A DNA stretch of 64,000 nt from Alkalihalobacterium alkalinitrilicum (GTDB lineage: Bacteria > Bacillota > Bacilli > Bacillales > Bacillaceae_F): contig NZ_KV917368.1 in NCBI RefSeq assembly GCF_002019605.1, positions 4,943,070-5,007,069 on the forward strand, in the 5' to 3' direction. Of the stretch, positions 16,950 to 45,871 are shown in pieces (positions within the stretch are counted from its first letter, which is position 1; each line of letters begins with the position of its first letter). A model generated the notes under the pieces. That model was not told where the DNA came from and made no database searches. It saw only the letters and a program-made list of their open reading frames with translations. A program made the position numbers and the translations under genes.

Positions 16950-18784
16950 GTGTGTGCCAGGCACATCAACTAACCACTAGAGGAACGCAAGGTACTTATC
17001 GCGAGGTAAGGGCTGAAGGAAGCGTGTATCAAAATCTTGGCTCGACGAATAGAAATCTGATACCAAGGCTCTGTAGGTGGATAAGACTCCATAACAAGTC
17101 AAAGTCCGAAAGATGTGCGTAAACCTATAGAGTAAATCAGGCGAGTAAAAGAGGAAAGATAGTTGTCTTACCCTGGGAGGTCTCGCGGACACTTGAGGAG
17201 TCCCCTATAAAGAAAGCTGGTCGAAAAAGGTTTATCGCGAGAAGTCAGCCGAAGCCATAGTAGTGATTAAATCACGAAGGGCTGAACAATTTATAGTGTT
17301 TCTACGCCATGAATGCACGGAGGATATACTTCTGAATGTGTTAATGAGGAAAGTATGAGCGTATCTCAAAGGATACTCAAAAGAGAAGTGTCTTACCGTC
17401 ACGTGAAAGGAAAGGAAGAAACGAGTGTGGAGCTTTTAGAAGAGATTTTAAGCAACCAAAATATGAATCAAGCTTATAAGCGCGTATATCGCAATAAAGG
17501 TGCAAGTGGAGTAGATGGAGTGAGTGTAGAAGAGTTGAAAGAATATCTGAAAGAACATAAGGATGAACTTCGTGCTCAAATTCGGAAAAGGAAATACCAA
17601 CCTTCGCCAGCACTGCGAGTAGAGATTCCAAAGGAAAATGGGAAAATGCGCAAACTAGGTATTCCAACGGTTGTCGACAGGGTGGTACAACAAGCAATCA
17701 GTCAAAAACTGAGCCCATTATTCGAAAAAACAATTTAGCGAATACAGCTATGGCTTCCGACCGGGAAGAAGTTGCGAGATGGCGATTATCCAAGCGTTGG
17801 AATATATGAATGACGGATGTGATTGGTTAGTATATATTGACCTAGAACGATTCTTTGATACGGTGCATCACGACAAATTGATGAGAATCATCTCCCATAC
17901 GATAAGCGATGGAGATGTAACTTCCCTTATAAGGAAATATCTCGTAAGTGGGGTGATGGTCCATGGTAAATATGAAGAAACGCAAGTTGGAACACCACAA
18001 GGAGGCAACCTTAGTCCACTCCTAAGCAACATTATGTTGAATGAGTTGGACAAGGAATTGGAAGCAAGAGGACTGCGTTTCGTTAGATACGCAGATGATA
18101 GCCTCATTTTCGTCAGAAGCGAAAATGCAGCGAATAGAGTGCTCACTTCCATTACAAAATTTATCGAAAAGAAACTAGGACTTAAAGTGAATGTGGAAAA
18201 AAGTAGAATCTCACGTCCTAACCAAACAAAATTTCTTGGATTTGGCTTTTACTACGACTCAAATAAGAAGAAAGTACAACCAAGACCTCATGGGAAATCG
18301 ATTCAGAAATTCCAAAGGAAACTACGTCAGCTAACAAAACGAAGCTGGAGTACCTCTCTAGATATGAGAATTGTTAAGCTGAAACAGGTTATTTACGGTT
18401 GGGTTAATTACTTTAAGATAGCTAACATGAAGAAAGCGCTTGGAGTAATAGACGCGAAACTTCGTTCCAGACTGCGAGTAATCATTTGGAAGCAATGGAA
18501 GTCCAACAAGAAAAGAATAAAATCCCTTGTCCAACTGGGCATTTTCAAAGAGGAGGCAAAGGGATTAACGTACTGTCGAAGGGGCTACCGTTACATTGGA
18601 CTATCGAAGGTAGTTCAAAAAGCATTATCTAATAAACGCTTAAGGCAAAGGGGTATTCCTTTTGCCTTAGACTACTACTTGAAAGTACACACTGTAATAT
18701 AAATTGAACCGCCGTATACGGAACCGTATGTACGGTGGTGTGAGAGGGGCGAAAATAGGTTAACTTATTTTCCCTCTACTCGAT
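16950..18784 (+). mobile_element. Group II intron, IIC type, inserted behind the fabI terminator
   Basis: The element begins with a GTGTG-type 5' end directly after the fabI terminator, has about 400 bases of structured leader, then a class C-like reverse transcriptase gene. At the 3' end a domain V-like hairpin (about 18711-18745, with CCGTATACGG and CCGTATGTACGG) and a domain VI stem (GAAAATA with TTATTTTC) lead to CTACTCGAT, a typical 3' end, at 18784. Insertion behind an intrinsic terminator is the known habit of IIC introns. The exact 5' base (16948, 16950 or 16952) is uncertain because of the GTGTGTGTG run. The 146 bases from 18785 to the next gene are not explained. Confidence 0.85.
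17355..18702 (+). pseudogene. ltrA: Group II intron reverse transcriptase/maturase, frameshifted
   Basis: Two frames cover one class C intron-encoded protein of about 448 residues: an N-terminal part ending at 17738 and a C-terminal part continuing to 18702. One extra A in the run at 17725-17730 breaks the frame; removing it restores LFEKQFSEYSYGFRPGRSC. Reverse-transcriptase motifs are intact: KLGIPTVVDRVVQQA, VGTPQGGNLSPLL and the catalytic RYADDSLIF. A maturase X-domain follows, and no endonuclease domain is present, as expected for class C. ATG at 17355 is preceded by GAGGA. Unless the ribosome slips or the indel is a sequence error, the protein is inactive. Confidence 0.88.
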
Positions 18785-18930
18785 TGAATAGCAATAAAGG
18801 GTTATAGGTTCATCTAATTACGTTAACGAGTGGCAAACCGTTGAAAAAAAGCAATAAGGAAAAATGATTGACCTAAACAAAGTTATATGCCGTTACCCGC
18901 CTTTAGGTTTACCCATATAGATAAAGAAAA

Positions 18931-19638
18931 GTGGGGATGGTGAATAAATTGAATAATAACAAATATAGATCTTCTAAAGTACCAAGTATTAAGAAGCCCG
19001 TTTTATATCGGAAAAATTCTACTGATTATGAAACATTAAAATATATTTTTTATGATAGGATGTTTAGCTTGGACGAGTTCGATCTTGAACCGAAATGGAT
19101 TATAGATGGGGGAGCCTATGTTGGTTATACTAGTGTTTATTTTGCAAATGAATTTCCTAATGCACAGATTATTGCAGTCGAACCAGATGGACCAAATTTT
19201 CAGTTGCTAAAAAAGAATGTAAAGCCATATCAAAACGTGATCTTGGAGCAGTCAGGTCTTTGGAATAAGGACACTTATTTGCAAGTTAAAGATGTTGGAT
19301 TAGGAGAGTGGGGGATGGTGGTGGAGGAACTAAATAAGCAGGAACCTGGAGCAATTAAGGCTACAACCATTACCTCATTAATCAACAAATACAAAATAAA
19401 TACAATAGATATATTAAAGTTGAACATTGAAGGAGCAGAAAAAGAATTGTTTTCTGCGGGTTATGAAGATTGGCTTAATAAAGTTAAAATCCTTATTATT
19501 GAACTTCACGACCGAATCAAACCTGGATGCAGCGATGCCTTATTTAAGGCTCTTGAGCCATACAACTTCGGTTCTTATAAAAAAGGTTGGAATAATATAT
19601 TATATAATAAAAACTTTCTAGATCATACAGTGACTTAA
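18931..19638 (+). CDS. FkbM-family methyltransferase
   Basis: The 235-residue protein has the FkbM SAM-binding signature IIDGGAYVGYTSVYFA near residue 50, the acidic loop AVEPDGPNFQ and the later DILKLNIEGAEKELF. FkbM enzymes O-methylate sugars and polyketides; here, among glycan genes, a sugar or glycopeptide is the likely acceptor. The start is uncertain: GTG at 18931 or ATG at 18937. It is the first gene after the intron and is convergent with the next methyltransferase gene. Confidence 0.8.
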   Translation: MGMVNKLNNNKYRSSKVPSIKKPVLYRKNSTDYETLKYIFYDRMFSLDEFDLEPKWIIDGGAYVGYTSVYFANEFPNAQIIAVEPDGPNFQLLKKNVKPYQNVILEQSGLWNKDTYLQVKDVGLGEWGMVVEELNKQEPGAIKATTITSLINKYKINTIDILKLNIEGAEKELFSAGYEDWLNKVKILIIELHDRIKPGCSDALFKALEPYNFGSYKKGWNNILYNKNFLDHTVT

Positions 19639-19694
19639 TTTGTTTACTAACCATTGTTAAATGCAAAGAATGAATAACTATATTTTAAATAATA

Positions 19695-19724
19695 GAGCAA
19701 TAGGTATGGATTTACCTATTGCTC
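19695..19724. terminator. Hairpin between convergent methyltransferase genes
   Basis: A perfect 12-bp stem (19695-19706 with 19713-19724) with a 6-base loop lies between the two stop codons. T-tracts are weak on both sides, so termination strength is uncertain. Confidence 0.6.
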
Positions 19725-19747
19725 AAAATCTTTGTTACAGATTAAAT

Positions 19748-20374
19748 TTATATAGCAGCCTTTTGAACAAATGCAGTTATAACAACCTGATAATTACGAT
19801 CATGAACATTTAGTACTTTCTTCGGAATTTCGTGTAGTGCAAGGCCGTCGAGGAAAGCTTTTGCGACAGCGACATTACCGTGGGAATTTACTTTGATTTC
19901 GTTTCGGCTGTCAACTTCAGCGAGTAATTTTTTTAAGGAAAGATCAGTAAATCTCCAATAATCTCCATAAGTATCATTGCCACAATATTGGCTGATACCC
20001 GTAGTTGTTAGAAGCAACACCCCACCTGGTTTAAGTGCGTTCAATGTATTTTCAATTACAGCCCTAATATCATAAATGACATGAAGTACTTGGGTGAGTA
20101 TAATGCAGTCAAAAGTGGAAGCAGGGATGTTCTTTCCAGTTGCTAGATCTCCAACAATGGTTGAATATTTGGTTTTATTAATGTCGAGCACGTCGCTTTT
20201 TTTAACAGCTGTACCGTATTTACGTGTATATGCATTTTCACCGATTTCAAGGACATGCCCATGAATGGCGGATTTATGCTGGTTTAAGAAGTTTTCAATG
20301 TAATATCGGTCGATAGGTTTACCACGGTCAAATCCAAACACCTTACTAACAGGTGTTGTAGAAAATTTCTTCAT
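19748..20374 (-). CDS. Class I SAM-dependent methyltransferase
   Basis: The 208-residue protein contains GHVLEIGENAYTRKYG (motif I of a Rossmann methyltransferase), FDCIILTQVLHVI (motif IV) and LNALKPGGVLLLTT (post-I/VI region), the methyltransferase type 11 pattern. Acceptor unknown. GGGAG precedes the ATG. It follows the GT2 gene on the reverse strand with a 64-base gap and shares its sigma-K-like promoter, so a role in modifying a spore glycan is inferred. Confidence 0.8.
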   Translation of the reverse strand: MKKFSTTPVSKVFGFDRGKPIDRYYIENFLNQHKSAIHGHVLEIGENAYTRKYGTAVKKSDVLDINKTKYSTIVGDLATGKNIPASTFDCIILTQVLHVIYDIRAVIENTLNALKPGGVLLLTTTGISQYCGNDTYGDYWRFTDLSLKKLLAEVDSRNEIKVNSHGNVAVAKAFLDGLALHEIPKKVLNVHDRNYQVVITAFVQKAAI

Positions 20375-20438
20375 TTTTATTCTCCCTTATAAGAATTATT
20401 GTTCTTCCAATTTACGATAGTAGTATTTTCACAACGCC

Positions 20439-21242
20439 TCATTTTTTTAGATTTTTTCTTTTGGGAATTAATTTTTCCACAAATATCCATCCGCCCATTT
20501 TCTTATAAACAGGTTTATAATGATCGCCCCACCGTTTTAATGAATCTTTTACAAGCCATTCTTTCATTTCATTCATCAGATCCTTATTGCCGCTCATATT
20601 GTTAGTATGACGGCGGTAATTATATAACAGTTCATTAATCCAATGAAATTTAAAGTGTTCTATCAGTCGGTGATCCATCCTTTGATCTTCCAAATACCTG
20701 CCTTCATACGGATCGTCCGTAGGCCATCCCCCGACAAATCTTAATGCTGATGTTCGATATAATCTAGGATAGGGTACAATATTCGCTAAAATAAACTCGT
20801 ATTTTTCATCAAAACCACGACCAAACCTTCGAATCTCTTCTTTTACAATCTTTCCATTTTTATCTTCATGAATAATTTTTTTATTTCCAAAAATAAGGGC
20901 AACATCATCAGGGATTTTTTCAGCTTCTTTTGCAAGTATTTCTAATGTATTTGGAAATAGCCAATCATCACTATCAAGCATGAGAATAAATGGGGTATCA
21001 ACATGTTTTAATCCGACATTTTGAGTCTTCGACTGTCCCATATTCATTCGATTTTGTAAAACTTGTACACGGGGATCTTTTGTGTAATCTTTGATGGTAG
21101 AAAGACTATTGTCCGTTGAGGCATCATCTACAATGATCAGCTTCCAATGCTTGTAAATCTGTTCAAAAACACTTTTTACTGCTTTTCTAAGGTAGCGCCC
21201 AGGATTGTAAGATGGAATTAAAACGGTAATTTCAACTTTCAA
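20439..21242 (-). CDS. Glycosyltransferase family 2
   Basis: The 267-residue protein is a GT-A enzyme: TVLIPSYNPGRYLRKAV at the N-terminus, VDDASTDNSL and the metal-binding LMLDSDDWLFPN (DSD). It should transfer a sugar from a nucleotide sugar to a growing glycan on the cytoplasmic side. The start is TTG at 21242 with AAAGGG upstream. It heads a two-gene reverse operon with the methyltransferase, behind an exact sigma-K promoter match. Confidence 0.87.
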   Translation of the reverse strand: MKVEITVLIPSYNPGRYLRKAVKSVFEQIYKHWKLIIVDDASTDNSLSTIKDYTKDPRVQVLQNRMNMGQSKTQNVGLKHVDTPFILMLDSDDWLFPNTLEILAKEAEKIPDDVALIFGNKKIIHEDKNGKIVKEEIRRFGRGFDEKYEFILANIVPYPRLYRTSALRFVGGWPTDDPYEGRYLEDQRMDHRLIEHFKFHWINELLYNYRRHTNNMSGNKDLMNEMKEWLVKDSLKRWGDHYKPVYKKMGGWIFVEKLIPKRKNLKK

Positions 21243-21321
21243 TCTGTTTCACACCCTTTCTTTTCTACTAGAGTTTATAGCTACAATAATTCAATTACCC
21301 ACCTTTATTTATCGACTTTAT

Positions 21322-21349
21322 TATTTTATGATGCAAAACAGAAAAAAGT
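21322..21349 (-). promoter_or_regulatory. Sigma-K-type promoter for the GT2/methyltransferase operon
   Basis: Read on the reverse strand the sequence is AC (21349-21348), 17 bases, then CATAAAATA (21330-21322). This matches the sigma-K consensus AC-N16/17-CATANNNTA at every fixed position. It lies about 80 bases before the TTG start of the GT2 gene. Sigma-K is the late mother-cell sigma factor, which fits coat glycan genes. Confidence 0.6.
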
Positions 21350-21489
21350 ATGTGCTTTTTCCTTATAGTTCTTAAGATAAAAAGTCTTACATATTTCATT
21401 AATTAAATAAATTTGGTACATACACCTATCCCATCAATGTATATAGGTGAATAGTGTATTATTAATACATTATAGATAGGGATGGTTCT

Positions 21490-22173
21490 ATGTTAGAATT
21501 AGGACAAGAGAGGATATTAATTATTGCACCTCATGCCGACGATGAAGTACTTGGTTGTGGTGGTTTAATAGAAAAAGCATGCAAGCATGGAAATGTAGTT
21601 AAGGTTGTCATTGGAGCAGTGGGAGATACTGAATTTCGTCATAATGCTAAAAAAATAACCGCGACAACCCGTATAAAGGAATTAACGGATGCATTACATT
21701 ATCTCGGGTGTGATGATTTTGAAGTAATGTATGATGATAAAGAAGCATTATTAGATACGGTTCCCCAAAAGGAGATTATTTCTTTTCTAGATCAATATAT
21801 TAAAGATTTATGTCCAACGATGGTTTTTATACCTTATCCTAGTTTTCATCAAGATCATCGGTCTTTATTTCACGCATGTATGGCTGCGTTACGGCCATAC
21901 CCAAAACATGAGTATAAGCTGATTGCCATGTATGAGTATCCATTTATTGTTTGGCAATTTCCGAAAATTGGAGATCTAGGTGAGTTATATTTAGACATAA
22001 GTAAAACGGTGAATAAAAAGATTGAGGCTCTATTAAAACACAAATCCCAAATTCGAGAAGAAGATCATTTAATCTCACCAGAAAGAACGAAAGAGTGGGC
22101 AAGAAAACGTGGGCTAGAAATTGGTGTCGATTATGCGGAAAAATATTATATTCTCCAGGCTAGGTTACTTTAA
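21490..22173 (+). CDS. PIG-L family N-acetylglucosamine deacetylase
   Basis: The 227-residue protein has the zinc-binding PIG-L motif IAPHADDEVLGCGG near residue 13 (with the AHDD-type catalytic aspartate) and the later histidine in YPSFHQDHRS near residue 115. The family removes acetyl from N-acetylglucosaminyl groups of lipids, bacillithiol precursors or polysaccharides. The context of spore glycan genes suggests a sugar substrate, but a BshB-like role cannot be excluded. It is divergent from the GT2 operon. Confidence 0.85.
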   Translation: MLELGQERILIIAPHADDEVLGCGGLIEKACKHGNVVKVVIGAVGDTEFRHNAKKITATTRIKELTDALHYLGCDDFEVMYDDKEALLDTVPQKEIISFLDQYIKDLCPTMVFIPYPSFHQDHRSLFHACMAALRPYPKHEYKLIAMYEYPFIVWQFPKIGDLGELYLDISKTVNKKIEALLKHKSQIREEDHLISPERTKEWARKRGLEIGVDYAEKYYILQARLL

Positions 22174-22325
22174 TAGAGTTTTCTAGTCTTTTTCTCTTTT
22201 TTATTGAAAATATTATTTTTAATGTACATATTTTTAAACATATAGGCTGTAGATTAAGATCTTTTAGAAACGTTAGTTTATCCCTGTAAAAGAATTGACA
22301 TTGCAAAATGTATCAACAGGTTTCG

Positions 22326-22902: not shown

Positions 22903-22993
22903 GCATATGACTAGTAAGTTTAATTGGTGAATCGTATGGTAAATTACAGTTTTAAGATGAAAGCCCCCAAAAAAAAACGTAAAGTAATTAGGC

Positions 22994-23020
22994 ACATATT
23001 TCAGTTTTAGACATATTTTG
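22994..23020 (+). promoter_or_regulatory. Sigma-K-like promoter for the DUF1360 gene
   Basis: AC at 22994-22995, 16 bases, then CATATTTTG at 23012-23020. One fixed base differs from CATANNNTA (final G instead of A). It lies 32 bases before the GTG start. Confidence 0.4.
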
Positions 23021-23051
23021 TTAGCAGATTGAAAAAGAGGATGGATGAAAA

Positions 23052-23408
23052 GTGATAAGTCCTTTCGAATTTATTTTGTTATTACTAGCTTCTTTTCGTT
23101 TAGCACATTTAGTAGTGTTTGACCAAATAATGGCACCATTAAGAAGGCCATTTCATGACATCATAACGGAAACATTGCCAGACGGAACAGTGGCAACTTA
23201 TCTTGAAGTGAGAGGGAGCGGCATTCGCAAATTTATTGGAGAATTAATCGCCTGTTATTGGTGTACTGGAATATGGACAGCTGCGGTTCTCTATTTTGGT
23301 TTTATTTATTTTCCGTTCATCTTTTTCCCAATCGTTATGATTTTGGCGATCGCAGGATGTGGTTCTATCATTGAAGCGATTGTTCAAAGAGTTATTCAAT
23401 CATCTTAA
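23052..23408 (+). CDS. DUF1360 membrane protein (YjcA-like)
   Basis: The 118-residue protein has hydrophobic segments at about 3-15, 60-85 and 85-105 and the DUF1360 pattern FRLAHLVVFDQI and IACYWCTGIWTA with a Cys-Trp-Cys motif. DUF1360 proteins are found in spore formers; B. subtilis YjcA, downstream of the coat gene cluster after fabI, is one. The molecular function is unknown. The start is GTG with GAGGATGG upstream. Confidence 0.8.
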   Translation: MISPFEFILLLLASFRLAHLVVFDQIMAPLRRPFHDIITETLPDGTVATYLEVRGSGIRKFIGELIACYWCTGIWTAAVLYFGFIYFPFIFFPIVMILAIAGCGSIIEAIVQRVIQSS

Positions 23409-23473: not shown

Positions 23474-24466
23474 GTGAGAAAGGAAATATTAGTAACTGGT
23501 GGTGCAGGTTTTATAGGGGTTAATTTAATAGAGTATCTTCTAAACGAAACATACTACCACATCACAAATATGGACTCTCTCACACATTCAACTAATGAAG
23601 AGACTCTTACAACATTTTTAAGGTCACCTAACTATCGATTTTTTCAAGTTAATATATGTAATCCAATAAAACTAAATGAGGTCTTTGATCGTCAATATGA
23701 TGTTGTTATACATTTAGCTGCGAAGACTGACGGAATTGAAACACTAAAGTCATCAATTGATTTTTTTGATGTTAACGTGATCGGTACAATGAATATACTA
23801 GAAAAGGTAAGACGTGGTTTTGCAAAAAAATTTATATATGTATCAACTGGGAAAGTATATGGAGCTCTAGGTGAAAAAGATCGACCATATACAGAAGATG
23901 CGTTCTTAAATCCGAGTAATGTTTATGCAGAAAGTAAAGCGAGTGGCGAAATGGTTGTTCGGGCCTACATGAAAACATATGGATTGCCAGCTATTATTAC
24001 ACGCTGCAGTAATAATTATGGTCCGTACCAACCACAGGAAAAATTAATACCGACAGTAATTTTAAATGCACTCGAAGATAAGGAAATTTCGATTTATGGA
24101 GATGGACATCATATTCGTGACTGGATATTTGTTAAGGATCATTGTAAGGCGCTTCTAAAAATTGTCGAACATGGGAAGTTAGGGGAGATTTACAACATTG
24201 GCGGTGGCCGTGAGCGATCGACGATGGATGTTGTTAAACTTATTCTCGACTATATGAATAAAGATCACGATTTGATGAAACATGTAGCAGATCGAGATGA
24301 TGGTGGTAGACGCTATGCACTGAATTGGGAAAAAATTCATTTCACACTTCAGTGGAAACCGCTAACTTCTTTTTATAGTGGCTTAGTTGAAACGATTGAA
24401 TGGTACGCTGAAAACAACTTCAAAAAAGTTGACAAAATAAGAAAAAGTTCAACTTCAATAAAGTAG
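23474..24466 (+). CDS. RmlB-like SDR lacking the dehydratase Asp-Glu pair
   Basis: The 330-residue protein is an extended [19 protein letters not shown] at the N-terminus and YAESKASGE (YxxxK) in the centre, and over the C-terminal half it closely follows the genuine RmlB at 44901 (shared [21 protein letters not shown]). Yet the RmlB catalytic STDEVYG is here STGKVYG, and AAESHVDRS is AAKTDGIET. It is therefore unlikely to be a dTDP-glucose 4,6-dehydratase; an epimerase, reductase or non-catalytic role is possible. GTG at 23474 follows GGAGGG with 8-base spacing. It precedes the CotS-like gene. Confidence 0.85.
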   Translation: MRKEILVTGGAGFIGVNLIEYLLNETYYHITNMDSLTHSTNEETLTTFLRSPNYRFFQVNICNPIKLNEVFDRQYDVVIHLAAKTDGIETLKSSIDFFDVNVIGTMNILEKVRRGFAKKFIYVSTGKVYGALGEKDRPYTEDAFLNPSNVYAESKASGEMVVRAYMKTYGLPAIITRCSNNYGPYQPQEKLIPTVILNALEDKEISIYGDGHHIRDWIFVKDHCKALLKIVEHGKLGEIYNIGGGRERSTMDVVKLILDYMNKDHDLMKHVADRDDGGRRYALNWEKIHFTLQWKPLTSFYSGLVETIEWYAENNFKKVDKIRKSSTSIK

Positions 24467-24484
24467 AGAGTTAATTAAGTGAAA

Positions 24485-24525
24485 GAACTCATTGTAATTA
24501 TTTTAAATTATGTGAGTTTTTTCGC
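24485..24525 (+). terminator. Terminator after the RmlB-like gene
   Basis: AACTCA and TGAGTT arms with an AT-rich inner stem and loop are followed by TTTTTTCGCTTTTTT. Confidence 0.75.
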
Positions 24526-24614
24526 TTTTTTGCTATTTGTGGGTAATTGTCCATTCCTAAAATTCGTGTAAAGAATACATTAGTTATTATATTAGACTAT
24601 AAGGAGGTAAAGTG

Positions 24615-25727
24615 ATGGAAAATGAGCAACTAATTACCCCCTGGGATTTAGAAGAAGCTGAACGCCAAGATAGTTTTTATGTTCCAGAATACATTGTTAA
24701 TATGGCTCATGAAGTGAATAAGCATTACGATATGCAGGTTAGTCATATGGAAGTCATTACAACAAAGGCTGATAAAGGCGGACTCATTTGGAAAATAGAA
24801 ACGGATAAAGGTCCGAGAAGTTTAAAATTATTGCACCGTAGACCGACTAGGAGTTTGTTTAGTCTCGGCGCACAAGAGTATTTAGTGAAGGAAAAAAATG
24901 CGAGAGTCCCGTCTATTATTCCAACGAAAGACGGAAAACTGTATGTAGAAATAGGTGGGAAGTTGTGGTTTGTCGCTGAATGGATTGAATCGCTCTTCCA
25001 AGTTACGAAAGATTTAGAAGGAGCTAAAGAACTTTGTTATGCAATTGGTGAATTTCATCGATTGTCTAAAGGCTACACACCACCACCAGGAGCTGAAAAT
25101 GCTTCAAGACTGTATCGTTGGCCGAAAACGTATAACAAGATTGTGAAAAAGATGACTTGGTTAAGAGATATTGCAACTGTATATAATGAAATGCCCGCAA
25201 GTTCGACCGTGTTATCTGTTATTGATATGTTTGAACAACAAGCAATTAAAGCGGTAGAACGGCTAGGGCAATCTGCTTATTATGAATTAGTCAAAAAAGG
25301 AAACAAAGAATGGGGACTTGTTCATCAAGATTACGGTTGGTCGAATGGCCAAAAAGGTGATGGAGGCATGTGGATCATTGACCTGGACGGCGTGGCGTAT
25401 GACTTGCCGATACGTGATCTACAAAAATTAATTACAGGAACGATGGATGACTTAGGTGGTTGGGATGTACATTGGATTAAAGAGATGATTTCCGCCTATC
25501 ATGAGGCAAATCCAGTAGACGACCAACTTTATGAAATACTAATGATTGACCTGTCACTACCAAATCTGTTTTATAAAAATGTAAAAGAAATGGTTTATGA
25601 ACCAACTGTATTCATGGATGAAGAACTTAAGAATTTAGTGCAAAGAATTGTAGATATCGATAAAACAAAATGGCCTGTACTCGATGAGTTAGCAGATAAC
25701 AGTTGGCTTGGAGGAAAAAGTAAGTGA
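24615..25727 (+). CDS. CotS/YutH-family spore coat protein (kinase-like fold)
   Basis: The 370-residue protein resembles the CotS family: KADKGGLIWKIETDKGPRSL near residue 55, HRRPTRSLFSLGAQEYLV, and an aminoglycoside-phosphotransferase-like core with LVHQDYGWSNGQ (catalytic loop with Asp and Asn) and WIIDLDGVAYDLPIRDL (metal-binding DLDG). CotS-type proteins are inner or middle coat components, some of which have spore-coat kinase activity. AGGAGG precedes the ATG at 24615. The stop overlaps the start of the following glycosyltransferase by 4 bases (GTGA), so the two are co-translated like cotS and cotSA. Confidence 0.88.
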   Translation: MENEQLITPWDLEEAERQDSFYVPEYIVNMAHEVNKHYDMQVSHMEVITTKADKGGLIWKIETDKGPRSLKLLHRRPTRSLFSLGAQEYLVKEKNARVPSIIPTKDGKLYVEIGGKLWFVAEWIESLFQVTKDLEGAKELCYAIGEFHRLSKGYTPPPGAENASRLYRWPKTYNKIVKKMTWLRDIATVYNEMPASSTVLSVIDMFEQQAIKAVERLGQSAYYELVKKGNKEWGLVHQDYGWSNGQKGDGGMWIIDLDGVAYDLPIRDLQKLITGTMDDLGGWDVHWIKEMISAYHEANPVDDQLYEILMIDLSLPNLFYKNVKEMVYEPTVFMDEELKNLVQRIVDIDKTKWPVLDELADNSWLGGKSK

Positions 25728-27202
25728 AAGTCTTAATAATCTGTACTGAAAAACTACCAGTTCCTCCTGTCCGTGGCGGGGCGATTCAAACGTATATTGC
25801 TGGTATTGCTCCTTTTTTAGGTCAAAAACATGAGATTACAATCATAGGAAGAAACGATCCATCTTTACCAGATCAAGAAACGAAAGAAGGCATTCAGTAC
25901 GTTCGAGTACCAGGCGGACTACTAGAAACGTATCGACAAGGCATTGTGGATTATTTAAACTCAAATTCTTCGTTTGATTTAATCCATATTTTTAATCGTC
26001 CACGACTTGTTACTTCGGTAAGAGAATGTGCACCGAGTGCTCGTATCTTCTTAAGTATGCATAATGATATGTTTAAACCTCAGAAAATTAATCCTGATGA
26101 AGGCCAGATAGCAATTCAAGAAGTAGAAAAAATTATTACGATTAGTGATTACATTGGGCAAGCGATTACAGAATGGTTTCCAGAAGCAGCTCCTAAATTA
26201 AAAACGATATATTCAGGCGTCGATTTAGACCGTTTCGTCCCTGTTTATTCTACAAAAGCGGAAAAAATTCGGAAAAAGATACGAAAAGAATACAATCTGG
26301 AAGGAAAAAAAGTCATCTTATTTGCAGGCCGTCTTTCAGCAAATAAAGGAGCCCATGTTCTCGTCCGGGCGATGAATAATCTAGCCAAAAACCATTCTCA
26401 TGTCGCTCTCGTCCTTATGGGAAGTAAATGGTTTAGTGATAATCGAGTAACTGATTATGTTTCCTATGTGAGGTCATTAGCAGAACGTTCACCAGTCCCA
26501 GTAATTACAACTGGATTTGTCTCACCTGATAAAATCCAAGACTGGTTCGCAGCAGCAGATATTTTCGTTTGCCCTTCACAATGGCAAGAACCGCTTGCAC
26601 GCGTTCATTATGAGGCGATGGCGTCAGGACTACCGATTGTGACGACAAATCGTGGGGGAAATCCTGAAGTGGTCGAAAGAAATAAAAACGGTTTTATTGT
26701 TGAAAAACCAGGTGATCCAAAGGAGTTTGCTGAACATTTATCAACCTTGCTCAATAATGCGCAGCTTTGTAAAGAAATGGGTCAATATGGTAGAAAGCTA
26801 GCTGAAGAAAAATATCACTGGGATCGAGTTGTTCATGACATTTTAGAAGTGTGGAATGAAATCGAGCAGAAGGTCAAAAATAACATCCCTATAAATGTAG
26901 AAGCAACAGAAGAACAAGTAACGGTAGAGGAAGTCGAAGAACAAGATGTACTAGTTACTGAGATAGAAATCGCTGCAGAAAGTGATACTGAGATTGAAGA
27001 AATTATGGAAGAAACAGAAGAACTAGAAGAAGTTGAAAAGGTAGAGGAAGACGAAGAAGAAGTGGAAGAAGTTGAAAAGGTAGAGGAAGACGAAGAAGAA
27101 GTGGAAGAAATCGATGAAGCGGAAGAAAAGCGCAATAGAGGCATCTTTGTCTGCTATTATAATCCACCAGCACCACCGTGGATTAATACGAGAGCTGGTT
27201 AA
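25724..27202 (+). CDS. CotSA-like GT4 glycosyltransferase with Glu-rich tail
   Basis: The first 390 residues form a GT-B glycosyltransferase family 4: EKLPVPPVRGGAIQTYIAG at the N-terminus, LFAGRLSANKGAHVLVRAM, and PSQWQEPLARVHYEAMASGL with the E-x7-E donor site. It resembles CotSA and YtcC spore-coat transferases. A tail of about 100 residues follows, extremely rich in Glu and Val, with a 13-residue unit EVEKVEEDEEEVE present twice, ending NPPAPPWINTRAG. The start is GTG overlapping the CotS-like stop. The acidic tail is unusual for the family and could bind cations or coat proteins. Confidence 0.88.
   Translation: MKVLIICTEKLPVPPVRGGAIQTYIAGIAPFLGQKHEITIIGRNDPSLPDQETKEGIQYVRVPGGLLETYRQGIVDYLNSNSSFDLIHIFNRPRLVTSVRECAPSARIFLSMHNDMFKPQKINPDEGQIAIQEVEKIITISDYIGQAITEWFPEAAPKLKTIYSGVDLDRFVPVYSTKAEKIRKKIRKEYNLEGKKVILFAGRLSANKGAHVLVRAMNNLAKNHSHVALVLMGSKWFSDNRVTDYVSYVRSLAERSPVPVITTGFVSPDKIQDWFAAADIFVCPSQWQEPLARVHYEAMASGLPIVTTNRGGNPEVVERNKNGFIVEKPGDPKEFAEHLSTLLNNAQLCKEMGQYGRKLAEEKYHWDRVVHDILEVWNEIEQKVKNNIPINVEATEEQVTVEEVEEQDVLVTEIEIAAESDTEIEEIMEETEELEEVEKVEEDEEEVEEVEKVEEDEEEVEEIDEAEEKRNRGIFVCYYNPPAPPWINTRAG
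27026..27103 (+). repeat. 39-bp in-frame tandem repeat, two copies
   Basis: Two identical 39-base units (27026-27064 and 27065-27103) encode the acidic 13-residue repeat in the tail of the CotSA-like protein. The identity at DNA level suggests a recent duplication. Confidence 0.85.
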
Positions 27203-28513: not shown

Positions 28514-29650
28514 TCAACTTTTCATTCCTTTCATTAAAATGTCAATGACTTCAGGACGGCTAAACTGTGGCGTTGGTGTTACACCGTTTCGAAGCATTTC
28601 CCGAACTTTGGTTCCCGATAAATGGAGGTGATCCTTCTTGTCATGAGGACATGTTTTACTCGATGCCATATTGTCACACTTATTACAGTAAAAGCTATGC
28701 TCAAAACATAGAATATTGATCCCAATGTCATCAGGAGGAAACTGCTTAAAAATCTCTTGCGCATCATACGTTCCATAATAGTCACCAACACCAGCATGAT
28801 CTCGCCCGACAATAAAATGAGTGCAACCATAATTTTTTCGCACAAGCGCATGAAATATGGCTTCTTTTGGTCCAGCATAACGCATAGCTGCTGGAAATAC
28901 AGATAAAAGTACACGATCACTAGGATAATAGTTTTTTAGTAGTACTTCATAGCTTTCCATTCGAATCTCAGCAGGGATATCATCTGATTTTGTTTCGCCA
29001 ACAAGCGGGTTAAGAAATAGCCCATCAACTGTTTCAAGAGCACATTTCTGAATATACTCGTGAGCTCTGTGTACGGGATTTCTTGTCTGGAACCCAACGA
29101 CGGTTTGCCAATTTTTTTGTTTGAAAAATTTCCTCGTGGAAGCAGGTTCATTATAGTATTGTAAAAAGCGTTTATTTTTACTTGGAACTTTTGTTAAGGT
29201 AATCGGTCCTGCTACATAGACGTTAGGGCGGTCTATGAGTTTTTTTACTCCTGGATGGTTTTGGTCTGTTGTTTGATATACGAGCTTTGCTTCTAGTAGT
29301 TTATCAGGAGTGTACATTTCATCCACGTGTAAGATGCCGTAAACGGTATTTTCAAAGGTTAGTTTTACATGCTGACCTACTATTATATCACTGGCCAATT
29401 CTTCAGTTACAGGAAGAGTAACCGGGAGACTCCAAACCAATCCAGCTTTTAACCTCATATTGTATAAAACAGATTCATAGTCTTCTTTTCCTAAAAAACC
29501 AGTAAGTGGGCTATAAGCTCCATTTGCGATTAACTCCAAGTCGGACAATGCCATTTTATCAATCTCAATTTCAGTAGTGATCGAAGAATAATCAAAGTTT
29601 AAATCAATTTGATTGACGAGTTTTCCACCATGAGGAATACTTTGTGTCAA
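28514..29650 (-). CDS. sat: Sulfate adenylyltransferase (ATP sulfurylase)
   Basis: The 378-residue protein has the ATP sulfurylase motifs [15 protein letters not shown] (QxRNP and HxxH), [25 protein letters not shown] and the C-terminal [16 protein letters not shown]...C pair suggests a structural metal. It makes adenosine-5'-phosphosulfate from ATP and sulfate. TTG at 29650 follows AGGAG with proper spacing and starts TQSIPHGG as in B. subtilis Sat. It is 11 bases after cysC in a reverse operon. Confidence 0.93.
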
Positions 29651-29661
29651 ATTTCTCACTC

Positions 29662-30294
29662 CTAACTTTTTTCACCCAGACTTAACTTTTTTTCAATGAA
29701 AGATTTAATTTTTTGTACACATTTCTCAACAGACATCGTTGTCGTATCAACGATTATTTCGGGGCTTTTAGGTTCTTCATAAGGCTGACTTATCCCAGTA
29801 AATTGAGGGATTTCACCATTTCGAGCTTTTTTATATAACCCTTTAGGGTCTCGTTTTTCACATTCCTGTAATGAACATTTCACATATACTTCAATAAATT
29901 CACCTGGTTCAAATAGTGACCGTGCCTGTTTTCGGTCTTCCTCATAAGGTGAAATAAGGGCTGCCAAAACGACAATCCCTGCATCAACAAATAGTTTTCC
30001 GACTTCAGCCGTTCGTCTGACATTTTCTTTCCGATCTTCTTCAGAGAAAGTTAAATTACGGTTGATCCCATGGCGCAGATTGTCTCCGTCTAATAAATAA
30101 ACACTAACACCTGCTTTAAATAATTCGTGTTGAAGTGCGTTAGCTATTGTAGATTTACCAGATCCAGAAAGTCCTGTGAACCAAAGCATGAGACTTTTAT
30201 GGCCGTGTAATTTTTGTCGATCTTGTTTTGTTATATTTGAATGATGCCAAACAATATTAGATGGGTTATTTTTATTTTCTTTAATTTTGGACAA
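29662..30294 (-). CDS. cysC: Adenylylsulfate kinase
   Basis: The 210-residue protein has the P-loop [14 protein letters not shown] near residue 38, the family motif [20 protein letters not shown] and [20 protein letters not shown]. It phosphorylates APS to PAPS. The start (TTG at 30294) is provisional because the AAAGGAG sequence lies very close to it. Together with sat it produces PAPS, used either for sulfate assimilation (needs cysH, not seen here) or for sulfation. Confidence 0.92.
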
Positions 30295-30323: not shown

Positions 30324-32092
30324 CTACCCCCATATGAATACAGAAAGAAAAACGGTAACTACCATACAAAGAATGCTTAAGGGGAATCCTACTTTGAAAA
30401 AATCAGTAAATCGGTATCCACCTGGTCCGTAAACGAGTAAATTCGTCTGGTAACCTATTGGGGTAATAAAGCTACAGGAGGCGGCAATTGAAATAACGAT
30501 TGCAAATAGTTCAGGGTTGTATCCTAGCTGAACAGCTAAAGAAAATCCTATTGGAAACATGAGGGCAGCTGCTGCAATATTGCTAATGATTTCTGTTAGA
30601 ACTAATGTTACTAGGTAGATTATGAAACTAAGCACGATTAGGTTAATTTGATTTTCAAAGTTTAAAAGATTGGTTATTAGAGTTGGTAATCCTGTATTTT
30701 CTACTGCCTTTGCAATTCCGATGGCTGAAGCGATAAGGATCAAAATACCCCAATCAATTGCTTATTTTGCTTCTGTAGTTGTAATCGATTTGGTTACAGT
30801 TAGAATAATCATTCCAAGAAGAGCTGCTTGGAGAATGGATAGTAGTTGAAAAGAAGCTAATGCAATGACACCAATTAGTGTTGGGATAATAATTTTAGTT
30901 TTATCAGGTCCTATCGGTTCTTCGGTTTCGATGCCTGATACAAGATAAAAATCACGGGAATTTGACCATGATTTTAAAAAATCTTTACCTGTTAACAGTA
31001 GGAGTGTATCTCCAGGTTTGATAATAATGTTTCCAATCCCAGAGGAAATTTGTTGATTTTTTCTTCGGATAGCAACGATAGCAGCATTATATTGGGCTCT
31101 GAAATTGGAGTTTTTTATTTTTTTATTTATTAATGGGGAAGAATGGGATACAACAACTTCGACTAAATTTGAGTTATAGCGTTTATAAACAGATTCCAAT
31201 TCCTCGTTTGAAGTGGTCAGTTTTAGCCCCTTTATATTTTTTAACTTCAGGATGTTTTCGATATTACCTGAAAAGATAAGTAAGTCGTTTTCTTGAATGA
31301 CTTCATAATTGGAAGCTGGAGTAATGACGTTATTTTTTCGAATAATTTGAACTAAAAAAATATCATGTAATGACCTTAAATTTACATCCTTTACTGTTTT
31401 GCCATCCCATAAAGATTCACTCGTTACTTTTACTTCAACTGTATAATCTTTCCTTATAGACTGGTAGGCTTCAAATAAATTTTTATTATTTGGTAATTTT
31501 TTTGACCATACATAATCATATATAATAAGCAGATAAAAAACAGCGGGATTCCAATAAGTGAAAATTGAAACATTGAAAATCCTGGATGTCCATTTTGTTG
31601 TAGCAATCCATGAATAAGTAAATTAGTGGAAGTACCGATTAAGGTAACTGTCCCTCCAACAATAGCAGCATAAGATAGTGGTATTAATAGTTTTGAAGGA
31701 GAAATTTTATTTTGTATTCCCCATTTATGAACAATAGGGGTAAGCATTGCAACAATTGGAGTATTGTTCATAAAAGCTGATAACAAGGATACGGGAAACA
31801 TAACTTTAAGGAGTACGATGGATAGTTTTTTATTTGTTCCTAATATACGTGTTAGGAGTTTTGGAACAACCCCACACTTTTGAACTGCATAAGCAATAAT
31901 CATTAATAAGGCAATAGTATGGACGGCAGGGTTAGCAAAACCTTGGAATGCCTCATTAATAGGAAGAACGCCTAATACAATAAGTAAAGATAATGCGGTA
32001 AAAACGGTAAGTTCAGGTGAGTACCACTCTTTAATGAGACTTAAAAACATAAGAATTAAAACAACAATAACCGTAATTACAACAGGTGACAT
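30324..32092 (-). pseudogene. SLC13-type (sulfate) permease with TrkA-C domains, broken twice
   Basis: Three reverse-strand pieces join into one 589-residue transporter: an N-terminal membrane half (32092-31454, with SAFMNNTPIVAMLTPI and GGTVTLIGTSTNLLIHG), a central pair of TrkA-C/RCK_C-like soluble segments (about 31460-30930) and a C-terminal membrane half. A missing base in the run at 31497-31503 shifts the frame, and a TAA at 30762-30764 replaces a sense codon in SITTTEAK-stop-AIDWGILIL. SLC13 carriers with TrkA-C inserts take up sulfate, which fits the sat-cysC genes that follow. With two independent lesions the gene is probably dead. Confidence 0.85.
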
Positions 32093-32347: not shown

Positions 32348-33499
32348 CTATTTTTCATTTATTGAGGATCGTATAGAATCGTATACTGTTTCTATATGTT
32401 TAAAAGTATGTTTATATTGAAAGTTTTCTTCAACAAGTAATCGACCGTTCTTCGCATATTGTAAAGCAACGTTTGGGTTTGATAAATAGTAATCAATTGC
32501 ATCGACAAATTCATTCGGATGATTGTATTCATCGATCACGTATCCATTTTTTAAATGGGAAATCACTTCGGTGTTGCCTCCCCTATTTGTCGTAATGATC
32601 GGAAGACCAGCAGCCATTGCTTCGTAGTGAACACGAGCTAGTGGTTCCTCCCATTGTGAACTACATACAAAAATATCAGCCATGAGAAAGAATTTAGGGA
32701 TTTCTTGGGCTGGGATAAATTTTGTGAATAGAACTTTGTCTTTTAAAGGTTTTGCTAGTTGGTGTAAGTAATTTACATAATAATCGATCGAATTGTCGCT
32801 GTACCATCTGCCGCCAGCAATAACTAAGACGGCATCAGGATGTTTTTTTAGCAGCGGTTTCATCGCTTGGATTAAAAGATGTGGACCTTTTGATTTGCAA
32901 AGGCGACCAGCAAATAATATTACTTTTTGATTTTCAACACCATATTTTTCACGGTAATGTTGACGGATCGGTTGGATATAAGGAGACCAAATTGGTGGAA
33001 ATTCATTTAGGTTAATACCTGAGTAGGCCACTGTTGTTTTCTGTTCAGCTTCAGGAAACCGTTTAATAATTTGTTGTTTGATAAAATGGCTTATCGTTAA
33101 AATATGGTCGCAAGTTTCAATGACTTTAATTCCTAATTCGGAAGAAATTTTTGCTTCGCGCATAACGTCATTGTGTAGACTTAATATAAACTTACTGTTA
33201 GGAGCAACCTCCTTATAACGAAGAATAGCTTTCGGACGATTGTAAACTTGAATAATATCAAACTGGGACTTAGCTAACTGTTTTGTGATCTCTCGTGAAA
33301 AATATTGATAAGGAACTCGAATATATTCAATGTTACCGATTTTCTCTTGTTTCGGTAAGGGAGGATCAGCTACAGAAAAGATTGTAATGTCATGCTTCTC
33401 GCTTAATATCGGTACGATTCCATCAATCAATACTTGGATAGCTCCACCTTTGATAGCAGGTGAAGGGAGGTTTTCGGTACATACGAAAGCAATTTTCAT
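32348..33499 (-). CDS. ytcC: GT4 glycosyltransferase (YtcC/CotSA-like)
   Basis: The 383-residue protein is a GT-B glycosyltransferase family 4 with ENLPSPAIKGGAIQVLI at the N-terminus, LFAGRLCKSKGPHLLIQAM and CSSQWEEPLARVHYEAMAAG (E-x7-E). It is a paralog of the CotSA-like protein at 25724 without the acidic tail. It ends a three-gene reverse operon behind a UDP-glucose dehydrogenase and an epimerase, the same set as B. subtilis ytcA-ytcB-ytcC. It probably transfers the uronic acid or its epimer to a spore glycan. GGGGGTG precedes the ATG. Confidence 0.87.
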   Translation of the reverse strand: MKIAFVCTENLPSPAIKGGAIQVLIDGIVPILSEKHDITIFSVADPPLPKQEKIGNIEYIRVPYQYFSREITKQLAKSQFDIIQVYNRPKAILRYKEVAPNSKFILSLHNDVMREAKISSELGIKVIETCDHILTISHFIKQQIIKRFPEAEQKTTVAYSGINLNEFPPIWSPYIQPIRQHYREKYGVENQKVILFAGRLCKSKGPHLLIQAMKPLLKKHPDAVLVIAGGRWYSDNSIDYYVNYLHQLAKPLKDKVLFTKFIPAQEIPKFFLMADIFVCSSQWEEPLARVHYEAMAAGLPIITTNRGGNTEVISHLKNGYVIDEYNHPNEFVDAIDYYLSNPNVALQYAKNGRLLVEENFQYKHTFKHIETVYDSIRSSINEK

Positions 33500-33501
33500 A
33501 A

Positions 33502-34455
33502 TTACACCCCCTTATAAAGTATTTTTAAATCTTCTATTTCTTTTTGCAATCCTTCCTTAAGAGAGATGACTGGTTGATAATGTAGGAGCTTTTGAGCTTT
33601 TGAGATGTCGGCCCATGTATGTTTCGGCTCTCCACGAGTCTTTCCCGTATATTCGATGGTCGCTTTTCGCTGGAAAATTTCTTCAATAGTTGCAATGGTA
33701 TCTAATACTGAAGCACGTTCTTTTCCACCAATGTTGATCGTCTCGCCGATAATAGGATGATCTGTATATAGTGCGGCTGCAGTACCTTTGACACAATCAG
33801 AAATATACGTGAAATCCCTCGATTGTTTTCCATCTCCAAAAACATGAATAGGATCACCAGCCATCATCTTTTTTATAAAACGATGAAAGGCCATATCTGG
33901 TCTTTGTCTAGGTCCGTATACGGTGAAGTACCTTAAAATCACAATCGGGACACCATCATTTTCATAATAAACATTACATAAATATTCTCCTGTTAACTTC
34001 GTAACACCGTACGGGGAAAGCGGTGCACAAGTCGCGTCTTCTGATACCATGCCAGTTTTATCGCCGTAAGCTGAGGAAGTTGAAGCATAAATGAACTTTT
34101 TAATCGGTAGTTTACGACTAGCCTCTAATAACCGCTGGGTACCATTGATATTATAATCAACATAAAGTTTAAAGTCCTCACCCCAACTCGTTCTGACACC
34201 TGGCATTCCAGCTAAATGGAAAATGACATCTATTCCTTCAAGGTGATCCTCCCAATTGATATGGAGTAAATCCTTCTTAACCAGTTGAAAACGTGGATGG
34301 TTTATGAGATTGAATAAGTTTCTCTGTTTGATCGAGTGATCCGTAAACCCTAAAAATCCATCTACACCAATCACTTCATTGGCTTCATCTAATAAAAGAT
34401 ACTCACATAAGTGGGAACCTATAAAGCCAGCAGCTCCTGTAACTAATATTTTCAC
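33502..34455 (-). CDS. ytcB: NAD-dependent UDP-sugar epimerase (YtcB-like)
   Basis: The 317-residue extended SDR has TGAAGFIGSHLCEYLL at the N-terminus, YASTSSAYGDK and PYGVTKLTGEYLC (YxxxK), and RYFTVYGPRQRPDMAF. This is the GalE/UDP-glucuronate 4-epimerase type. Because it follows a UDP-glucose dehydrogenase, UDP-glucuronate to UDP-galacturonate is the likely reaction (inference). The GTG start overlaps the previous stop as GTGA, so translation is coupled. Length is normal for the family. Confidence 0.87.
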   Translation of the reverse strand: MKILVTGAAGFIGSHLCEYLLLDEANEVIGVDGFLGFTDHSIKQRNLFNLINHPRFQLVKKDLLHINWEDHLEGIDVIFHLAGMPGVRTSWGEDFKLYVDYNINGTQRLLEASRKLPIKKFIYASTSSAYGDKTGMVSEDATCAPLSPYGVTKLTGEYLCNVYYENDGVPIVILRYFTVYGPRQRPDMAFHRFIKKMMAGDPIHVFGDGKQSRDFTYISDCVKGTAAALYTDHPIIGETINIGGKERASVLDTIATIEEIFQRKATIEYTGKTRGEPKHTWADISKAQKLLHYQPVISLKEGLQKEIEDLKILYKGV

Positions 34456-35732: not shown

Positions 35733-35949
35733 CCGAAATCTCCTTCCAAACAGCAAATACGACATCGAAATTTATGGCTTATATATCGTATTAATGGGCA
35801 GGGGAAATACGTGACAATATCCCATCGAAACAATGAAAAATAGGTGAAGTCCTAGATTACTCCATTGGAAAAATTCATTTCTTTCTGGGATTAGGTATAC
35901 GGAAGGAGTAAGTATTCTTATAGTTTACTTATCAAAAAAGCTTTTTGAA

Positions 35950-44155: not shown

Positions 44156-44908
44156 ATGAAAGGGGTTATTCTAGCAGGAGGAAAAGGTACTCGGTTAAGA
44201 CCTTTTACTAAAATTATAAATAAACATCTTCTTCCAGTGGGACCATTCCCAATGATTTATTGGTCAATAAAAAAGCTCAAGGAGGCTGAAATAAAAGACA
44301 TTTTAATATTGACAAATAAAGAGCATTTAAGTAACTTTATATCTATTTTTGGAAATGGTAAGGGATTAGGAGTGAATTTAACCTATAAAGTTCAAGATGG
44401 GCCAAATGGAATTGCAGATGGCGTAGCTTATGCAAAGTCGTTTGTAAGGGATGAAAAATTTATTACCATTTTAGGTGATAATATTTTTGAAGATTCCCTT
44501 GTACCTTACATTGAAAGTTTTAAACAACAAAAAAGTGGGGGAAGAGTTTTATTAAAAGAAGTACCAAACCCTTCACGTTATGGAATTGCCATATTAAATA
44601 AAGAAACAAACACCATTCAATCAATAATTGAAAAACCTGAAAAGACGAATTCTCCTTACTGTGTAACAGGAGTTTACATGTATAATGTTCAAGTGTTTGA
44701 TTTTATTAATGCTATAAAACCATCCGCTCGTGGAGAATTAGAAATTACAGATGTTAACAATTTATTTATAAATCAAAACCAACTGCAATATGATATTTTA
44801 AAAGGCTGGTGGATTGATGCAGGTACACATGAATCGCTATATAAAGCTAATACTTTAGTTTATGAGCTTATTAAAATATCAAAAAGGAAGGGGGAGGAAC
44901 GTGAGTAA
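44156..44908 (+). CDS. rmlA: Glucose-1-phosphate thymidylyltransferase (short RmlA/SpsI type)
   Basis: The 250-residue protein has the nucleotidyltransferase start [18 protein letters not shown], the [13 protein letters not shown] segment, the metal aspartate in [12 protein letters not shown] and [10 protein letters not shown]. It forms dTDP-glucose from glucose-1-phosphate and dTTP. At 250 residues it is the short form seen in the B. subtilis sps operon (SpsI) rather than the 290-residue RmlA. AGGGGGTG precedes the ATG. Its end overlaps the start of rmlB by 8 bases. Confidence 0.9.
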
Positions 44909-45854
44909 ACACCTTCTAGTTACAGGCGGTGCAGGATTTATCGGTTCAAACTTTATTGAGTATATGTTAGGGAATACAAGTTATTCAATTACCAACATTG
45001 ATGCATTAACTTATGCAGGTGATATTGACAACATTAAACACTTTAATCAGAACTCAAAATATCGATTTATTCATTGTGATATTAGCAATAGTACTAGTTT
45101 AAAGCAAGCTTTTGACCGTGAATATAAAGCAATTATTAATTTCGCAGCAGAATCTCATGTTGATCGTAGCATTGAGAATGCTCATCCTTTTATAAATACA
45201 AATATTAACGGAACACTTAATCTTTTAAATGCTGTACTTGTCGGAAAAGCCAAAAAAATGATTCAAATTTCAACAGATGAAGTGTATGGATCCTTAGGGC
45301 ATGAAGATCTTCCATTTACTGAACACTCTCCCCTAGCACCTAATAACCCTTATTCAGCAAGTAAAGCAAGTGCTGATTTGCTTGTTCGCTCCTTCTATAA
45401 AACATATCAATTACCTTTGATAATCACTCGATGTAGCAATAATTATGGTCCTAAGCAACATAGAGAAAAATTTATCCCTAAAGTAATCATAAATGCTTTG
45501 AATGACCAAAAAATTCCTCTTTATGGAGACGGTCAAAATGTTCGCGATTGGCTGTTTGTGGATGATCATTGTCGTGCCATTCATATGGTGTTAGAACATG
45601 GAGAACCAGGTGAGGTTTATAACATTGGCGGCGGACATGAGAGAACGAATAAAGAAGTGATTACACTAATTCTTGATTATTTAAATAAAAAACATCAATT
45701 AATCGAATATGTTGAAGATCGAAAAGGTCACGATAGAAGATATGCAATCAATTGGGGCAAAATTCATAAGGAATTAGGATGGAAGCCACAAGTAACATTT
45801 AGAGATGGACTTATTAATACGATCGAATGGTACAAAAACAACAAAATCCAATAA
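44901..45854 (+). CDS. rmlB: dTDP-glucose 4,6-dehydratase
   Basis: The 317-residue protein is a canonical RmlB/Sps[42 protein letters not shown] (catalytic Thr-Asp-Glu) and [14 protein letters not shown] (YxxxK). It converts dTDP-glucose to the 4-keto-6-deoxy sugar, second step of dTDP-rhamnose synthesis. GTG at 44901 with GGGAGG upstream; overlap with rmlA indicates coupling. It is the reference against which the altered paralog at 23474 stands out. Confidence 0.95.
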
Positions 45855-45871
45855 AGTAGGTGAAAAAACTG

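Follow-up and report, generated by a model that had tools for sequence, protein, structure and literature searches.

Introduction

The chemistry of the nucleotide-sugar dehydratases related to RmlB has been laid out in PMC8987622, and the portion of that article used here provides the frame for our comparison. In these enzymes, C4 is oxidised by Tyr and NAD+ and its ketone stabilised by Thr or Ser; the C6 hydroxyl leaves with the help of an acid (Asp), and Glu or Lys serves as the base that abstracts the C5 proton. According to its Table 1, RmlB is recognised by [ST]DE before YxxxK, Lys is the catalytic base of CDP-glucose 4,6-dehydratase, FlaA1/PseB and Pen, which carry Asp-Lys pairs, and sulfoquinovose synthase reads [ST]MG with acid and base not assigned. 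TunA has Cys instead of Asp and makes a 5,6-ene, and GalE requires just [ST]..YxxxK without an acid/base pair.

In B. subtilis, spsIJKL represents the dTDP-L-rhamnose pathway, and the spore surfaces contain rhamnose, galactose and quinovose, as stated in the part of PMC7439481 considered here. The genes ytcA, ytcB and ytcC are found near cotS in the same organism (PMC2860764, in the part used). Finally, EvdS6 (PMC10338323, likewise cited from a part) provides a precedent for divergent function on this scaffold, because this protein of RmlB fold is a UDP-glucuronate decarboxylase that is labelled dTDP-glucose 4,6-dehydratase in the PDB.

Here, a stretch of 64,000 nucleotides from Alkalihalobacterium alkalinitrilicum (contig NZ_KV917368.1, hereafter the window) was analyzed, which codes for a genuine RmlB and for a paralog with Gly-Lys instead of Asp-Glu, named G-K protein in the following. 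The features needed for the comparison are:

22989..23030, plus strand: conserved upstream block with sigma-K-like promoter (AC at 22994, 16 bases, CATATTTT)
23052..23408, plus strand: gene for a DUF1360 protein, presumably opening the operon (Pfam PF07098, 115.5 bits)
23474..24466, plus strand: G-K paralog of RmlB/SpsJ (STGKVYG), an extended SDR of 330 aa, complete ORF
23843..23863, plus strand: codons of S124-T125-G126-K127-V128-Y129-G130, replacing STDEVYG (pattern match and alignment)
24474..24536, plus strand: intrinsic-terminator-like hairpin in the interval between the SDR gene and cotS (-20.7 kcal/mol, z -6.62, a value reached by none of 200 shuffles)
24612..25727, plus strand: CotS-family spore coat kinase-like protein (TIGR02906 313.4 bits, cut-off 172.7)
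25724..27202, plus strand: CotSA-like GT4 glycosyltransferase (PF00534; syntenic in four of four species)
44901..45854, plus strand: genuine RmlB (SpsJ-like), the comparison paralog, in an rmlABDC cluster (TIGR01181 454.5 bits, cut-off 365.1)

Results

Relation of the G-K protein to RmlB

The G-K gene starts with GTG at 23474, preceded by GGAGGG, and its stop ends at 24466; ATGGAGGGAAT ahead of the start is invariant in all four Alkalihalobacterium species. The genuine RmlB is encoded elsewhere in the window, with rmlA, rmlD and rmlC as neighbours, in a cluster resembling spsIJKL of B. subtilis as described in the cited part of PMC7439481. BLASTP aligned the two proteins over 317 residues without gaps (161/317 identities, 51%; 226/317 positives, 71%), which agrees with the likeness over most of the length claimed in the original prediction. 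Both motif exchanges quoted there, STDEVYG to STGKVYG and AAESHVDRS to AAKTDGIET, were recovered in the alignment, and the NAD-binding and YxxxK motifs are indeed retained: the G-K protein has kept TGGAGFIG, Ser124-Thr125, Tyr151 and Lys155, and TGGAGFIG, Asp34, Thr125, Tyr151 and Lys155 are invariant in the G-K proteins of all four species. The claim that the catalytic pair is replaced needs rewording. Gly-Lys does stand for Asp-Glu, but Lys is listed as catalytic base of other dehydratases, hence "acid lost, base exchanged" is more apt than "pair lost".

The exchange of Asp-Glu to Gly-Lys is far beyond chance, with Asp126 and Glu127 present in 108 of 108 RmlB rows of our alignment and Gly-Lys in four of four species. 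The alignment includes 70 rows kept from a viral-contig set of 80 loci (two with stops, L151 left out, identical rows merged). Eight rows were kept from a further set of 16 loci (four with stops, identical rows merged); two of these 16 loci, L079 and L082, were not matched by the motif expression, but Asp and Glu stand in 38 of 38 rows of the corresponding alignment. Like the Asp and the Glu, E, H and D of AAESHVD show no variation among the 108 RmlBs. Out of 78 columns conserved to at least 95% in the RmlB rows, all four G-K proteins agree with RmlB at 51, which leaves 27 where they do not. Individual G-K proteins deviate at 20-24 of the 78 columns compared to a mean of 0.65 and a maximum of 6 for the RmlBs, whose low counts are favoured by the choice of columns for RmlB conservation. 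RmlBs with up to six deviations include proteins that are 44-49% identical to the window RmlB, while the G-K proteins are at 51-53%.

At nine positions the four G-K proteins share a residue other than that of RmlB, namely Y38H, A39S, H86D, D126G, E127K, A153E, D159E, N250T and H277G; two of the new residues occur rarely in RmlBs as well (Ser39 in 1/108, Glu159 in 3/108). The changed regions comprise the LTYA stretch, the sugar loop (AAESHVD), the acid/base pair and the RxGHD loop, and the turn around the catalytic Tyr reads YAESKASGE instead of YSASKASAD. The crystal contacts of EvdS6 with TDP, as given in the cited part of PMC10338323, are E128, N179, V190, P205, Y207, R214, N249, R273 and H276; by motif and offset, not by superposition, they correspond to K127, N180, L191, P206, Y208, R215, N250, R274 and H277 of the G-K protein. 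On this assignment N180, R215 and R274 are kept, every one of the four species differs at N250 and H277, and P206 and Y208 are each changed in one of the four. Changes in the sugar loop and the acid/base site together with those at N250 and H277 suggest that the nucleotide pocket may have shifted along with the reaction.

Profile scores and predicted structure

All four G-K proteins stay below the curated TIGR01181 (RmlB) cut-off of 365.1 bits (361.0 for the window protein; 350.0, 350.5 and 361.2 for the orthologs), whereas seven of seven RmlBs scanned exceed it (433.3-468.2). The [ST]DE that marks RmlB in Table 1 of PMC8987622, cited in part, is STGK in four of four species. With the RmlD profile the G-K proteins reached 70-86 bits compared to 49.0 for the window RmlB, a shift that is not clean, as two genuine RmlBs gave 59.6 and 67.1; the 85.8 bits of the window G-K protein lie below the TIGR01214 cut-off of 224.05. 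The GalE profile TIGR01179 gave the same 136.2 bits for the G-K protein and the window RmlB, below the cut-off of 262.3, a result with which a GalE-like mechanism is compatible. The profiles of Asp-Lys families were not reached either (TIGR02622 98.5 versus 278.45; TIGR03589 28.4 versus 407.75), and where the [ST]DK of CDP-glucose and UDP-GlcNAc 4,6-dehydratases requires D, the G-K protein has G. In contrast to these subfamilies, its place among the extended NAD-dependent SDRs is clear from PF01370 (216 bits), GxxGxxG, the triad T125-Y151-K155 in four of four species and the fold matches. The AlphaFold2 model has a mean pLDDT of 90.1 and finds its best structural matches among RmlBs; apart from residues 85-90, in the sugar loop, no inner stretch falls below 50.

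Compared with described enzymes, the G-K protein thus differs from RmlB/SpsJ in its Gly-Lys, its rewritten sugar and RxGHD loops, its gene position outside the rml operon and its score below the TIGR01181 cut-off. It shares Lys at the base position with the Asp-Lys dehydratases and differs from them by Gly instead of the acid Asp and by an overall sequence that is RmlB-like, not CDP-glucose- or PseB-like. A Polysacc_synt_2 protein of the window (51810-52814) reads SSDK at the acid/base site, with Lys as in the Asp-Lys dehydratases. Similar to GalE and YtcB, the G-K protein has Thr..YxxxK without dehydration pair, and by eye its YAESKASGE agrees with YGVTKLTGE of the YtcB-like protein in the final two residues, where RmlB has YSASKASAD. 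However, it is just 30% identical to this YtcB-like protein (33502-34455), and RmlB is the closest relative. An identity as YtcB was rejected, since YtcC/YtcB/YtcA-like genes are present separately in the window, at 32348-35765. EvdS6, 36% identical to the G-K protein, retains T-D-E and acts on a uronic acid, as far as the cited part of PMC10338323 describes it.

Distribution and selection

Each of the four Alkalihalobacterium genomes, including that of the window, has one G-K gene and one RmlB (E 1e-80). The three orthologs are 69, 71 and 75% identical to the window protein, all read STGKVYG, and their second motif is AALTDVNEK, AALTDVNEK and ATLTDGTEK. Sequencing error was rejected as source of the Gly-Lys, because four assemblies carry it in codons that differ synonymously between the species. 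Whether orthologs keep Asp-Glu had been named as decisive in the original prediction; none of the three from other Alkalihalobacterium species does. Pairwise dN/dS of the G-K genes was 0.086-0.142 (six species pairs). RmlB gave 0.058-0.105 in five usable pairs and CotS 0.033-0.051, and the G-K mean is about 1.5 times that of RmlB. These ratios are approximate, since many dS values exceed 1 and three pairs, one of RmlB and two of RmlC, gave no NG86 estimate. The low values indicate that the gene is maintained by selection, less tightly than the neighbouring cotS. Together with the presence of Gly-Lys in all four genomes of the genus they speak against both a point change and decay. Among the four species the G-K proteins diverge down to 68% identity, with redox triad and NAD motif invariant.

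The STGK-stretch pattern matched in four of 397 genomes of the order, all Alkalihalobacterium, and in none of the 393 others. A wider pattern, [ST]T[DEG]K[VL]YG followed by YxxSK at RmlB spacing, was run on a collection of genome contigs (84,980 species according to its description) and found ten stretches: three are STGK genes of Alkalihalobacterium, four with STDKVYG or TTDKVYG belong to SDRs from other branches (L033, L035, L036, L037), and three without long frame (L034, L041, L042) were taken as chance. Both patterns are strict and miss relatives with other spacing or other replacements. The first genome-contig scan with the G-K protein as query gave 25 stretches with no confirmed relative, and among 540 plasmid and 119 phage records at E 1e-60 none reached 60% identity. 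Literature searches, partly judged by titles and abstract openings, found no paper on the G-K protein, and nothing linking DUF1360 with spores or on a dTDP epimerase or ketoreductase. Within this search reach the G-K form belongs to one genus, accompanied by one Asp-Lys copy from another family. The spore-associated SDR subfamily proposed originally is therefore conserved, under selection, distinct from RmlB and located at a spore locus, but its breadth is far below spore formers in general.

An Asp-Lys homolog and the origin of the G-K gene

This Asp-Lys copy was found in the corresponding locus of G047, a genome from another family of the order. It reads STDKVYG and AASSNINSS, adjoins DUF1360 and lies downstream of homologs of 13674, 16119 and 22373; a second RmlB of this genome reads STDEVYG. 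The step from Glu to Lys was hence also made in a second lineage, in which Asp is still present. The matches listed for the G047 homolog include 40 from 35 of the 397 genomes, and the reading left out five RmlB rows among these 40 (G216, G363, G294, G262 and G273). Of 30 loci read, 29 are RmlBs adjoining rmlA, all with STDEVYG, the remaining one being the G047 copy. Within the 1.5-kb flanks examined, beyond which it would escape, DUF1360 immediately precedes rmlA in four other genomes (L050, L057, L058, L060). This arrangement suggests that rhamnose genes have long stood at the G-K locus, where one copy of rmlB became free to change. In G047 itself, an rmlA fragment of 96 aa lies between DUF1360 and the second rmlB (L031:8694-8984), with a longer rmlA match (242 aa) downstream, and represents traces of a rearrangement of the rhamnose locus.

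Against a recent duplication inside the genus, a single clade of the G-K proteins and the RmlBs of the genus is weakly disfavoured (p-AU 0.041). A common origin of the G-K proteins and the G047 copy received support of 98/93 with all columns and 92/86 without both motif stretches. When either lineage was omitted, the other had a long branch without a resolved partner, placed among the RmlBs or next to them, hence long-branch attraction is possible for this grouping, and the G-K stem branch amounts to 0.86-0.98 changes per site. The G047 copy deviates at 18 of the 78 conserved columns, and 16 of these lie among the 27 of the G-K proteins (hypergeometric 8e-8); a new residue is shared at just two such columns, namely 127 and, for two of the G-K proteins, 88. 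This overlap could also reflect a parallel relaxation of one active site.

Locus and expression

In the 42-base block upstream of the DUF1360 gene 35 positions are invariant in the four species, in surroundings that are poorly conserved. Its AC-N16-CATATTTT resembles the sigma-K consensus. AC-N16-CATANNNT matches in four of four species, though the bare pattern is not rare, with 23 matches on both strands of the window. The DUF1360 gene adjoins the G-K gene in all four species, and a hairpin with T-run follows the latter. As predicted originally, the G-K gene lies just ahead of the CotS/CotSA-like pair, and this order is syntenic in four of four species; because of the strong hairpin in between, its presumed operon partner is DUF1360 upstream and not cotS. 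Conserved promoter block and hairpin indicate that DUF1360 and the G-K gene likely form a two-gene sporulation operon apart from cotS-cotSA.

The CotS-family protein is 91-93% identical in three congeners. At its C-terminus (26830-27140) the CotSA-like protein carries a repetitive tail rich in Glu and Val, and its ORF varies in length, with 492 aa in the window and, for the congeners, 614 aa (G001), 466 aa (G002) and 471 aa (G003). Genes for ATP sulfurylase and APS kinase (28514-30294 in the window) follow within a few kb after cotSA in all four species; a connection of sulfate activation with glycans of the spore coat is conceivable.

Discussion

That the acid is gone while the redox triad is intact points to C4 redox chemistry without dehydration. 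The example of GalE, which works without an acid/base pair, and the raised RmlD scores, although the shift is not clean, agree with this. We consider the G-K protein a neofunctionalised duplicate of SpsJ/RmlB that would act as 4-epimerase or 4-ketoreductase instead of 4,6-dehydratase, a reading to which we give about an even chance. Following this reading, the duplicated spore rhamnose enzyme would have acquired its new role in Alkalihalobacterium and, judged from the sigma-K-like promoter and the spore-coat neighbours, would be made late in sporulation. In a predicted RmlB-like fold, with NAD+ presumably bound by the kept motif, Thr125, Tyr151 and Lys155 would take a hydride from C4 of the nucleotide sugar and then return it. 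As the Asp acid is lost, the Glu base turned into Lys, and the sugar loop and, on the above assignment, part of the TDP pocket rebuilt, a 4-keto-6-deoxy sugar is most likely no longer made. The reaction could be the 4-epimerisation of an NDP-hexose or the reduction of a 4-keto sugar delivered by SpsJ of the same cell, and the product might serve as sugar for a coat or crust glycan; either activity would fit sugars such as the rhamnose, galactose and quinovose reported for B. subtilis in the cited part of PMC7439481. Paralogy, fixed changes, purifying selection, synteny and the conserved promoter block are directly supported, and the RmlB fold is predicted.

Against this reading it has to be stated that the closest sequences and structures are RmlBs, that the TIGR01181 shortfall is small (4-15 bits), and that no signature residue for an epimerase or ketoreductase was identified in the G-K protein. 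Since Lys serves as C5 base in other 4,6-dehydratases, E127K alone is compatible with dehydration, and the protein might still be a 4,6- or 5,6-dehydratase for another NDP-sugar, with Lys127 as C5 base and water leaving via solvent or another residue. The Asp-Lys pairs and the Cys of TunA in the cited part of PMC8987622 would agree with this view, the STDKVYG copy of G047 is a plausible intermediate, and in EvdS6, an RmlB-like decarboxylase, E128A at the corresponding position caused no significant change according to the part of PMC10338323 used. We regard it as rather unlikely, however, because no dehydratase in the cited Table 1, which also lists no Gly-Lys pair, has Gly at the acid position, and because E84, H86, V87 and D88, all invariant in 108 RmlBs, are replaced as well (V87 in two of four). 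A related and improbable option is a new reactivity class, in which Lys127 would take the C5 proton, no acid would expel the C6 hydroxyl, and the sugar would be epimerised at C5, or a nucleophile added as in sulfoquinovose synthase, before being reduced back; if true, this would give a spore-coat sugar by a pathway that the literature examined does not describe for relatives of RmlB.

The joint loss of several RmlB-invariant residues and the dN/dS of about 1.5 times the RmlB mean could also mean that a catalytically silent NAD-binding protein has evolved, acting as structural or regulatory partner of RmlB in mixed dimers or of a coat glycosyltransferase. Inactive enzyme folds may occur at this locus, given that cotS is described as possibly encoding an inactive kinase in the cited part of PMC2860764. 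Such a role is nonetheless unlikely, because the C4 redox triad and the NAD motif remained invariant in four of four species despite drift to 68% identity, and a scaffold has no evident need of Tyr151 and Lys155. Finally, the long stem branch and the confinement of the G-K form to one genus would suit a decaying duplicate without function, an explanation to which we give hardly any credence: it is already contradicted by dN/dS of 0.09-0.14 in six of six pairs, and the ORFs are intact with conserved start, promoter block and synteny.

Automatic annotation would probably name the G-K protein dTDP-glucose 4,6-dehydratase, since most of its sequence resembles RmlB, although the exchange of both water-removing residues makes another building block of the spore surface its probable product. 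It would point to a further sugar on spores of alkaliphilic bacilli. Asp-Glu, Asp-Lys and Gly-Lys represent a natural series for how a dehydratase might become another sugar enzyme, and with the Asp-Lys and Gly-Lys homologs at hand, the roles of acid and base are directly testable by exchange.

Other features of the window

The window rmlD (SpsK-like, 45866-46721) is frameshifted, with residues 1-32 in one frame and 24-282 in another according to tblastn, and is intact (282 aa) in three congeners; this may be genuine loss or assembly error and may affect the rhamnose pathway of the strain. A CitMHS-type transporter at 30324-32092 is split into three ORFs (139, 145 and 212 aa) and forms a single ORF in G002 (598 aa) and G003 (593 aa). 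Both cases together hint at indel errors of the assembly or at real decay. Reverse-transcriptase-like and methyltransferase-like ORFs were recognised by eye in the stretch 16970-22270, which further contains a PIG-L deacetylase-like gene and a GT2. The three congeners lack this stretch at the corresponding position and have the gene matching 16119 near DUF1360.
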